From the NCBI GenBank assembly GCA_030248225.1, contig JASANE010020303.1:1-64000 (forward strand): DNA of 64,000 nt, written 5' to 3'. The stretch is from Trileptium ribeirensis. Taxonomy: Eukaryota > Nematoda > Enoplea > Enoplida > Thoracostomopsidae. Positions within the stretch are counted from its first letter, which is position 1. Each line of letters begins with the position of its first letter. The translations under genes and the position numbers were made by a program. A model generated the notes under the pieces. That model was not told the origin of the DNA, ran no database searches, and was given only the letters and a program-made list of their open reading frames with translations. This document shows positions 16,401 to 25,400 of this stretch, piece after piece.

Positions 16401-19400
16401 CACGTTCAGGTTTGACACGCGCATTGAAGAAGCAAACCGCAGCGTGACTCGCCGATTACAAATAAGTTTGTTAATTATTGTTGTTGTAAAGGTACGACTG
16501 GTGCGACTCACATACCAAAATTGTAAACTCACGCTGAGCACCCAAAATAGGAAACTTAGACACGCGCGGATCCGACGTTAAACGTCTAGGGATTTGTCGG
16601 ACCCTAGTGGGGGCCACTGGCTAAATTAAATCGAGTAGTCATTTTGATGAAGTAGGAACCAATTTCGATCAGATTTAAATATTCAAAATTTGACACCTCC
16701 CGGGTTAAACGTGGATAGGGAATAGCGGTTTGGTCTCTTTGGCCTGTGAGCAGATGACGGAGCCAACCTCCCTGGGGACCTCAAAGGTAGTACCTCGTAG
16801 ACTACGTGCGCAACCCGTCCGGCAGGATCAGAACACATCCTGTGAAGCGCTCCTGCGGCTTGCTAAGCTCCGTCATTTCTTGGGCCTGACTCGCGTGGGA
16901 AAAGAAATTCGAGCAATTGAAACCCATCATGTCCGCCATTGAAGTCACGATAGCCGGGGTCGTATGGGCATTACGTCAGGGAAGTGCGTAATGCAGCAGC
17001 GTCACGTCGATATTACAAACACAATAAAAGCGTATATATATTTTCTAAACTATTCCAGCAACGTGGCTCATCTTCAGTGGCTCGTTTTGTACATTATTGG
17101 TCAATATAGCTATGCACATCTCTCTAAATTGCGTATTCAACACTCAGAGAATTCACTGCCTTTGCGATAAAACAAGTTACTAGTTATAGTTCATTTTTTC
17201 AGCGCAGTAACGTACCATAGAATTGAGCACAGTAAAATTATTAAAAGCAAGACAATAGACGTGAAGCATTTGCTCATATAGCAATTTCGAAATTTTATTT
17301 AACGGCGGCAGAGCATTTTTCGGCAACAAACCTGTTTAACACAGCCACTGGTTTAACACAACCAGTACCCACCTGGTTTCTCTACGAGTGAGTCAAACTA
17401 TAGGGGCGACCGAGAAAATCAGGGGTCGACAAATATGGGGGCGTCCTCGTTCGGTTCATAGGATTTTTCTGTGTATTAATTACTTCATATTTTAGTTGAT
17501 TTATGCTCAAATCGTGAGATGCTTCGGTACCAGCCATAAATGCAAAGCTATATTTTGCAACATATGTCAATGAATATTTCATTATAGAACCACATTTGGG
17601 GTTCAAAAACTTGAATCACCATTCACCTCGCGTCTTTGTTTAGCAGTCAATAACTGAGCCGGGTGCCACCAAGTATTAATGGCGTCCCACCCAGTTCATG
17701 CCACCCCCTGACTGACGATCCTCGAAGCCGCTCCCAATACTTGGTTGCCCCTGGTTTAGGTATTCATTACTTCGTCTCCCCCACGGTTCGTGAATCGAAG
17801 GGTGGCATGAACCGGGGGCGTAGGTTCCCACGAACCGTAGGGAAGGCGAAGTAAGTGGGGGGCACCACGCAAGAGGAAGCCAACCCCACAATAAAATTTG
17901 TTCCCAATGTAGTTTTTCAGACGTTTCTTATTCCGTGCCCATAAAGGACATTTTACCCACTAATTTTGATTAATATATTTTGCAGATGTGTTCTGCGCTC
18001 CACCGGCTCCATATTTGGAGTACGTTCGTAGCAAAATGGACAAGAAAGTTCATGTAGCGGCACAAAATTGTTACAAAGTCAAATCAGGAGCATTTACTGG
18101 TGATATTAGGTAAAGTTTCTGCAGAAATAATTATTTTGTTGCATACAATTTATCTTTGAATAAATTTTTGAATATCGGTTGTGCTGTGGTTATGTTATAA
18201 CTGGACTCCGAATAAAATTCAGTTTTTTACCGATTTTGTTTCATTAACGTCAGTTTTGGTTTACGGTCCGTATACGTAACCAGTCGCTCATTGATTTATT
18301 AGGACAGCCTCTTCGGAAGATTCGTTCTCGCTGTTCACTAACATCTGCCGTATGTGTCTAGCCTCTCCAGGATTTCGCGCGTTCTCACCAAGCTGATGCC
18401 TAGCGGGTAAGTTTTGGCTTCCCTCAGGTAAACCGCGCAAGCCCTTCTCCTCTGGTAGTTTGAGGTGATATCACAAATAACTGTATTAACCAAACACGGA
18501 TATAACAAAACTCAATACTCCTGCTTATATTTTGATTGTTCATGACAAAATCATAAGTAAAATGAACCGCGGCCTGCAGGAATACGACCTTTCAGTAAGT
18601 AGGTAAGAAATATGCAAACTGAAACAACGATGTATATAAATTGTTGTAAAGGCTTGAAAAACAGTAATTATAAAGACCACATGTTGCCCTACGCGGTGCG
18701 GTTTTCCGCCCAGTTAAATTAGGGCGATTACCGCGGGTATTTGCGATGCCCCTTGACTGAAGCTGGTGTCCCGTGTAAATTGTTGGTGCTGCGGAGAGGC
18801 ATTTGTAGGTACAGTTTTCTTGGTGTATATTAGTGAAACTTTGTTTTAAACGTAACGTTGAACTTTGCTCTTTGTAAGTCGGTTCGTTGCAGTACGGTAG
18901 TGGTAATAACCGATGTGGCGACACACTATTGCCACTATTACTTTGTTACTTATTAATTGTGTCATAAACAGATGAACATAACGGCAACATTTACAATTCG
19001 CTTCGTTATGATATTTTCAGTCCGGCAATGATTAAAGACGTCGGCGGTGACTACGTGATCCTTGGACATTCGGAACGGCGATGGGTATTTGGAGAAACTG
19101 ATCAGGTTAGAGGCTCTTACAATTATCTTCAATATGACATTTTCAGTCCGGCAATGATTAAGGACGTCGGCGGTGACTACGTGATCCTTGGACATTCGGA
19201 ACGGCGATGGGTATTTGGAGAAACTGATCAGGTTAGAAGCTCTTACAATTATCTTCAATATGACATTTTCCGTCCGGCAATGATTAAGGACGTCGGCGGT
19301 GACTACGTGATCTTTGGACATTCGGAACGGCGATGGGTATTTGGAGAAACTGATCAGGTTAGAGGCTCTTACAATTATCTTCAATATGACATTTTCCGTC

Positions 19401-22400: not shown

Positions 22401-25400
22401 ATTATCTTCAATATGACATTTTCAGTCCGGCAATGATTAAGGACGTCGGCGGTGACTACGTAATCTTTGGACATTCGGAACGGCGATGGGTATTTGGAGA
22501 AACTGATCAGGTTAGAGGCTCTTACAATTATCTTCAATATGACATTTTCAGTCCGGCAATGATTAAGGACGTCGGCGGTGACTACGTAATCTTTGGACAT
22601 TCGGAACGGCGATGGGTATTTGGAGAAACTGATCAGGTTAGAGGCTCTTACAATTATCTTCAATATGACATTTTCAGTCCGGCAATGATTAAGGACGTCG
22701 GCGGTGACTACGTAATCTTTGGACATTCGGAACCGCGATGGGTATTTGGAGAAACTGATCAGGTTAGAGGCTCTTACAATTATCTTCAATATGACATTTT
22801 CAGTCCGGCAATGATTAAGGACGTCGGCGGTGACTACGTAATCTTTGGACATTCGGAACCGCGATTTATATTTGGAGAAACTGATCAGGCTAGAGGTTCT
22901 TACAGTGCTGGCTGGATTGGTGTGGATAGTAATTTGATTTCTTATGCTATACTTTAACAATTGCTATACCGTCGAGACTTCCCCGATGTTAATCCTCGGC
23001 GTCCTTGATCGATGAAAGATAAAACATCACTTAGTTTCATGGAATGCAGTGGTTGGTTACAAATGTAAATCCGGTTGATGCCCGGATTATAGCCGAAGGA
23101 TAGAATAATGATTTTTATGATGCTAATTTTACCCTGATAATATTGTTTCAATTTATAAAGAAATTTTTATTTGAATTTTAATTACTTATATGTTGATTTT
23201 ATCTATAGTAGCATCTTATAGTTTTTAGCCAGTTGAAAAAAAATTTATTATCATTCTCTTCGACAGAATTTGTCTACTTATCTTTGTGTTGGTAATATTT
23301 TTCGTCTGCTATCGGCACGTATTCAATCCTTACTGATGTGGGTTGTTGTTCAATCGTAAATTCGATCTTAATTTACGTTGTGCGTTAGATGATATTACCA
23401 AAGTATAACTCTATTTCTAATTTCACCTATCGGGAAAAGCGTGGAAAAAATAAAACTAAAAATAGTATTTCGGATTTTCATTCTGATCATAATGTTACGC
23501 TTGACGTAGACAAATTAAAAATATCTTTAAACCTTGCCGCATATTCATAATACGTTTTGATTTCGACTTTTCTATTAACGAGTTATGAGGTGCCTAGAAT
23601 TAAAAAATGATATTTTTATGCATGTTTCGTCGTAATTTGGGCCTCTTTGATTTGTAGATGAAAAATATAGTGCGTACGCCGTATGTTGAGGCACAATTGC
23701 AATCATTAAGAATATACCGATTGATAAAAACTCATCTTTACGATGTTTCATAGCTTTTGTCTTATGTTATCTTCGCGGACTGACAGGCTTTATTTAATTT
23801 TTTATTAATATTGTCGCCTGTGTCGTTGCTTAGATTCTAATTTGAGTCATTGATTAATATTCTACTGTTTAAGTTAATCGCCGAAAAAGCAGTGCACGCT
23901 CTTTCGGAAGGTCTAGTCGTTGTTTATTGTATCGGAGAGAAGCTTGAAGAGCGTGAAGGTGGAAAAACCAAAGACGTCTGCTTTCATCAACTTCAAGCTG
24001 CGTTAGGTACGTGCGATGATCTAGTATTCCATGGCGGCTCCCACTTTTTCATTATGCGAGTTTTAATTTCACTTGATTTACTGTCGTAGACTTGTTCGAT
24101 GTTCGTCGTACAACGATAGAGCCACTTTGCAGCAGACAGTAGCGATATTTGTTCCACACTTGCGCCTGAGTAGTTTTTGTGACCTAGCCAAGAACAGGCG
24201 ACAACAGAATTGACAGCCTCAAGAAACACACTCTTTCCAGGAGCAGCGATTACGTTCAATAACCGCCAGTGAGATTCCTCGTGAAATTGTGACATAAAAT
24301 CCGAGCACTTTCATCGTATACTCTCAAGATGTCATAAGAAATTGCGGGCGAGTAAACTTGCAGCGATTCCAACCAACTATTCTATCTTGTAATTACGCAT
24401 CAAAAAATTGTTACGAAACGCGTTTTGGTCAATTGGGATGTGGCGTAAAAATTACACACTGCTTTGTGATTGAATTCCAGCCATTTTGTGTTCGCGAAGA
24501 TTCAAGTAAAATTATCGAAATTTTTAAGGACAAAAATTTGTCCAACTTGAATTAAGGTGGTTTTGTTCGCGAATACCAAGAGCTTAGCTATAGTATCGAT
24601 ATCTTTGTGACGTCACTATTGCATTAAATTTGTTCGCGAACACTTAGTTATCTATAGGATGAGGTCACTTTAAGTTTGCTGACGCTTTAACAAATGAGTG
24701 AACCGTGTTACATGCTCTCAATCTATGTCTTCAATGTCGTATAACAGTTTAATTTGTATTGTCCACGCCATAAGATCTAATATTTGAAACTCTATAGGTC
24801 TGGATGGTTTAGTTCAGATCAAATTGTCGTATGCTGCGACGTAAAACGATCGACGTGAAGTGTTCAGGCTTTTCCAAAGAGGGGGAGTCCCTGGTATTTT
24901 TCGGCACCCCTGGCAAAAACGGCTACTCCCCAGTTGGTGCTCCCTGGCAAAATTTGGGCTTCCGGCCGCTAACACACCTCCAGTTGGTATAAAAATTTCA
25001 CAGAATTTTTATCATAATCCCTTTGTGAACTTAAAAATTTGATTAATTTCAGCAAAAATGGTTGAAAATTGGCTTTAAACTCACTATATACGTTTTGCAG
25101 TGTTTCTAAGGATAACTGTTAATTATTTAAATTTTTTCATTTTAAAATAAATTTTGAAAAGGTTTAGATTTCGAAGTCGGGTGTGCTCCACGTTTGAAGC
25201 CAGGAGGTCCTACAATTATGCCACCTGGTAAAATTTCATTCCGTCTGTCAAAATTTGAGCGAATGAAGAAGTCGTGTGTTAGCCTGTTACTATTTCATTA
25301 ATGCTTAAATTTTAGACGCCAAAGTTGACTGGGGTAAAGTTATCATCGCCTACGAGCCAGTTTGGGCCATTGGTACGGGCAAGACAGCAACTCCCGCACA

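Follow-up and report, generated by a model that had tools for sequence, protein, structure and literature searches.

The KIV-2 array of LPA places whole exons within a tandem array of one gene, with 1 to >40 copies, and some of these copies are described in the excerpted text of PMC6314250 as carrying nonsense variants or changes at canonical splice sites, including A>C at position −2 of the acceptor. In human ABCA7, a variable number tandem repeat (VNTR) in intron 18 is a minisatellite containing the donor splice site of exon 18, and it has been linked to splicing and expression, as stated in the excerpted text of PMC5954066. Dscam-type genes carry large tandem sets of homologous exons. Here, we describe an array that resembles each of these systems in part: 31 tandem copies of exon 3 within the triosephosphate isomerase (TPI) gene of the nematode Trileptium ribeirensis, located in a 64,000-base stretch of contig JASANE010020303.1 (positions 1–64,000 of the forward strand; hereafter, the window). 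Our preferred interpretation, to which we assign a probability of roughly 60%, is that an intragenic minisatellite has engulfed an essential TPI exon, that the copies do not constitute a functional bank of exons, and that TPI is made via the first copy.

The window (0 N, GC 38%) contains a complete TPI gene on the plus strand (4348–30662), on which all the gene and array features described below also lie. Counting exon 3 once, the gene has seven exons: exon 1 (4348–4456), with the start codon and the residues NWKMN, exon 2 (17986–18109), exon 3, exon 4 (23874–24006), exon 5 (25316–25401), exon 6 (28357–28444), and exon 7 (30544–30662), with the stop codon. When copy 1 serves as exon 3, all six introns are of the GT–AG type with consistent phases, and the coding sequence is 744 nt, encoding 247 amino acids. 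The Pfam TIM domain (PF00121) spans residues 6–245 at full length (308.6 bits), and the catalytic Lys, His, and Glu are all present in the translation. The best match in the PDB was 1mo0 (E = 7.7e-113), which we take to be the TPI of C. elegans, with 2i9e and 1r2r ranking behind it. A first-pass annotation of this DNA had described the rest of the gene as complete and in phase, which agrees with the six other exons and their GT–AG introns, and had rightly placed the catalytic His at residue 94, encoded in exon 3.

Tandem Repeats Finder (TRF) reported a single array at 18991–22904, with a period of 126 bp, 31.0 copies, 97% matches, and a score of 7311. The units are arranged head-to-tail, and each consists of the 85-nt exon 3 and a 41-nt intron. 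All 31 exon copies could be placed, the first at 19021–19105 and the last at 22804–22888, so that the annotated figure of 31 repeats of an 85-nt exon at a 126-bp period was recovered both by TRF and by locating the copies. Their length was 85 nt in 29 of the 31 cases, the exceptions being copy 8 (87 nt) and copy 11 (86 nt). The mean pairwise identity of the units was 97.2%, and 17 distinct types were distinguished, the commonest of which was seen eight times. Four variants were common along the array: A/C at acceptor position −2, G/A at exon nucleotide 37 (silent), C/T at exon nucleotide 41 (Leu92/Phe), and G/A at intron position +7. Minisatellites are built of head-to-tail units of approximately 10–200 bp, a range within which this array of 31.0 copies of 126 bp falls. 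The unit was not found elsewhere in the window beyond one 16-bp match (E = 0.36), and a 28-base piece of its intron had zero exact matches in viral contigs.

The copies differed in their splice sites and coding capacity. The AG acceptor was present in 13 of the 31 copies (1, 2, 16, 20, 21, 22, 24, and 26–31), and the remaining 18 had CG (TTTTCCG), an A-to-C change that removes the AG. The GT donor was found in 30 copies, with GC in copy 31. An AG acceptor, a GT donor, a full frame, and the residues LGHSERR occurred together in only four copies. These were copy 1 (19021–19105), the proposed working copy, which also carries a private silent A at 19036; copy 2 (19147–19231), whose acceptor lies 41 nt past the copy 1 donor; copy 16 (20914–20998); and copy 20 (21418–21502). 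Frameshifting insertions were observed in copies 8 and 11, a stop in copy 24, a His94-to-Asp change in copies 4 and 21, and an Arg97-to-Pro change in copies 30 and 31. Every acceptor of copies 3–15 (19273–20872), which include both frameshifted copies and the altered copy 4, read TTTTCCG, and copy 31 (22804–22888) combined its AG acceptor and GC donor with the residues EPRFIF. The picture of the array in the first-pass annotation thus holds in that the copies are near-identical, but needs the correction that not all of them are intact: 18 have lost the AG acceptor and copies 4, 8, 11, 21, 24, 30, and 31 are damaged.

T at exon nucleotide 41 was found in 16 of the 31 copies, 15 of which encode Phe92 and one of which (copy 11) is frameshifted. 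As a yardstick of residue conservation, we used bacterial TPIs (bacterial by title), of which 80 loci were kept from 275 relatives in genome contigs (best identity, 52%). The motif could be read in 78 of these 80 loci (L069 and L079 were missed); both Arg residues were invariant, and the residue preceding GHSE was V, I, or L, with F in 0 of 78. Because GHSE served as the anchor of the reading, these four residues are constant in part by construction, and bacteria are remote from a nematode as a standard of comparison.

The length of exon 3 (85 nt) means that joins of several copies break the frame. With copy 1 used once the frame was open, and with copy 1 used zero, two, three, or four times it was broken. 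When joins of two to four of the 13 AG copies were computed, all 78 pairs, all 286 triples, and all 715 quadruples failed to read to the end. The 126-bp period is divisible by three, so runs from the acceptor of one copy to the donor of a later one keep the frame; of 126 such runs through the array, 39 were open. A long repeat protein translated straight through the array was considered and rejected as a by-product: the spacer is open, but copies 8, 11, and 24 carry stops or frameshifts that block translation of the whole array. A 906-codon antisense open frame also crosses much of the array (20243–22963, minus strand); we found no evidence of a gene there, and this frame is likely a by-product of a period divisible by three.

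In the proposed mechanism, exon 2 would be spliced to copy 1, which comes first in the array and is among the four fully intact copies, and then to exon 4, the other copies acting as decoys inside an intron. The computed joins of two to four AG copies lead to premature stops, and such RNAs would presumably be cleared by nonsense-mediated decay. In terms of splicing geometry, the AG acceptors lie 41 nt (copy 2) and 1808 nt (copy 16) past the copy 1 donor, with ten more up to 3698 nt, and exon 4 is 4768 nt past it. Acceptor loss in 18 of the 31 copies would therefore leave this donor without a further AG-bearing copy between copy 2 and the 1808-nt mark. Efficient splicing is said to need a distance of ca. 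50 nt from donor to branch site (excerpted text of PMC6692369), and a figure for the shortest nematode introns was not found in the literature searched. If the 41-nt intron is unspliceable here, acceptor loss in copies 3–15 gives copy 1 a clear 1.8 kb.

The ends of the array are informative about its origin. Homology to the unit starts with TTACA (18991–18995), 30 nt upstream of copy 1, and stops with TTACA after copy 31 (22900–22904), so that the array ends with the same five bases that mark its left end. This 5-bp match is likely the microhomology of the first duplication, in which a single exon 3 would have been duplicated in tandem through TTACA sequences 30 nt before the exon and 12–16 nt after it. 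Unequal exchange of several units at a time, together with local turnover, would then have expanded the 126-bp unit to 31 copies. Two kinds of evidence point to multi-unit exchange as the mode of growth. First, the array contains a higher-order repeat at 20409–21532, in which 620 bp recur exactly 504 bp (four units) further on; it corresponds to two E-G-G-I runs of unit types. Second, the acceptor and nucleotide 37 variants are clustered along the array (shuffling P = 0.006 and 0.00015, respectively). The signs of unequal exchange expected of a minisatellite were thus found in the 504-bp higher-order repeat and in two of the four common variants. A separate cluster of changes was noted in the intron before copy 27 (22259–22299), with 7 changes in the last 30 nt and one near the start, and exon copy 27 itself had no private change; this cluster perhaps reflects one conversion or insertion event.

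When copies 1, 27, and 31 are set aside, 7 of the 85 exon sites vary (five missense, one stop, and one silent), and there are 2 insertions. Compared with the 182 missense, 12 stop, and 58 silent changes that exon 3 could undergo, these counts, which are small, give no sign of purifying selection across the array exons. With the same three copies left out, the density of variable sites was similar in the exon (7/85) and in the intron (4/41). Copy 1 had fewer changes in its exon (1/83) than in its intron (5/39; p = 0.013).

Several results weigh against our interpretation. When spliced in singly, 28 of the 31 copies read to the end, which means that the array has decayed to a limited extent and is either young or homogenised. 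Copy 1 is no more intact than copies 2, 16, and 20. Copy 27 showed the same imbalance as copy 1 (exon 0/83, intron 7/39; p = 0.0002), and constraint on copy 1 alone is therefore not supported. The nucleotide 41 and intron +7 variants were not clustered (shuffling P = 0.77 and 0.83, respectively), and nucleotide diversity was lower in the exon (0.0147) than in the intron (0.0262), with few sites in either. Furthermore, coding damage, counted without the Phe92 change, did not track acceptor loss (4 of 13 AG copies vs 3 of 18 CG copies; p = 0.41).

Acceptor loss may help to make so long an array tolerable, and drift during array turnover explains the loss equally well. It is conceivable but unlikely that the array is under splice-level selection: the growth of an essential exon that breaks the frame would be tolerated because the acceptor-removing variant spread to 18 of the 31 copies and left the first copy as the working exon, and the level of a glycolytic enzyme would then be tuned heritably, via unproductive splicing, by the number of units and the fraction of copies with a live acceptor. 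Seen as a dosage rheostat, the competing copies would divert a share of the transcripts into frame-shifted RNAs, and array length together with the share of acceptor-dead copies would set TPI output under selection. The failure of every AG-copy pair, triple, and quadruple to stay open and the rise of the acceptor-removing variant to more than half of the copies speak for such a device, and the ABCA7 repeat offers a parallel, its length being tied to exon skipping and lower expression (excerpted text of PMC5954066). However, coding damage is not concentrated in the splice-dead copies, and drift during turnover would give the same pattern, so that we regard a rheostat as rather improbable.

We think it quite unlikely that the array is an assembly artefact, with units inflated in number or shuffled relative to a shorter array in the animal. 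The 97% identity of the units would fit this reading, and the frameshifts in copies 8 and 11 each occur once, as expected of sequencing errors, but the seventeen distinct unit types, the regional blocks of shared variants, and the diverged edge copies 1 and 31 are traits of a real array. We similarly doubt that this is a failing gene copy whose function is supplied by another TPI gene elsewhere: many decoy exons inside an essential gene might suggest failure, yet the seven exons are open, 6 of 6 introns are GT–AG with copy 1, and the TIM domain is full length.

Docking/selector base pairing is present in some mutually exclusive exon clusters. In a scan of ungapped runs between the unit intron and stretches of introns 2 and 3 that lie beyond the array, the longest complementary runs were 8 and 10 nt, lengths that were equalled in 198 and 142 of 200 shuffles, respectively. 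The predicted RNA fold of a single unit was unremarkable (z-score, 0.06). A Dscam-like bank of mutually exclusive exons, from which one copy is picked per transcript, is highly improbable: a single copy gives an open frame where the multi-copy joins tested do not, and the 41-nt spacer is perhaps too short to splice, given the donor to branch-site need of ca. 50 nt (excerpted text of PMC6692369), but 18 of the 31 copies have no AG acceptor, 16 carry the Phe92 base (15 encoding Phe), a residue found in 0 of the 78 bacterial TPIs, and the copies differ too little for distinct isoforms. Among the options offered in the first-pass annotation, neither the bank of alternative exons nor the expression switch by splice choice is supported, given the missing acceptors, the absence of clear coding constraint, the lack of docking pairing, and the low diversity of the copies, and an exon captured as a new satellite gives the best fit. 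The tuning of TPI output by unproductive RNAs, also offered there, is conceivable, in that the computed joins of AG copies all failed to stay open.

Other minisatellite-like arrays, with periods of approximately 36–136 bp, were observed in the window at 45617–47043, 9323–9671, 61865–62145, 63686–64000, and 34848–35301, that at 63686–64000 reaching the window end, and the region seems prone to arrays of this kind. Among the remaining features, a U3 small nucleolar RNA gene was identified on the minus strand at 32937–33135, scoring 124.8 bits (gathering score, 34) over the full model length. Two EGF-like domains, also on the minus strand (60985–61754), form part of a gene in which one of them is followed by a hydrophobic stretch resembling a membrane span; the closest solved relative of the second domain is Delta-like protein 1. 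Long open stretches of protein-like composition were found on the same strand at 40746–41357 and 42712–43692, with no Pfam match at E 1.

Exon-bearing VNTRs are already known; no exon array in TPI was described among the matches listed in the titles and abstracts of the open-licence PMC literature. The KIV-2 array of LPA has a 5.6-kb unit with two exons (160 and 182 bp), and its copies add kringle domains to the protein. The TPI unit is 126 bp long and holds one 85-nt exon that breaks the frame when joined to another, and 18 of the 31 copies lack an AG acceptor. Every TPI unit carries the exon, with a GT donor in 30 of 31 copies and an AG acceptor in 13 of 31, but the copies are not joined in frame into the protein in the combinations of AG copies computed (0/78, 0/286, and 0/715 open), and the TPI array therefore resembles the KIV-2 type without belonging to it. 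The ABCA7 repeat has a 25-bp unit that includes a donor only, whereas the TPI unit comprises a whole exon with both splice sites. Unlike Dscam-type arrays, the TPI array consists of near-identical copies, most of which (18 of 31) are not spliceable alternatives because they lack the AG, and no docking/selector pairing was found in our scan. What is unusual about the TPI array is its small whole-exon unit, its position in a glycolytic gene, the rule that one and only one copy keeps the frame, and the presence of an acceptor-removing variant in 18 of the 31 copies. Here, a minisatellite appears to have engulfed a whole exon of a glycolytic gene, and the rest of the gene is intact. The locus offers a natural test of how splicing deals with dozens of near-identical exons when no more and no fewer than one may be used, in a gene expected to be essential. 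The silent base private to copy 1 would allow the chosen copy to be recognised in ordinary RNA reads.

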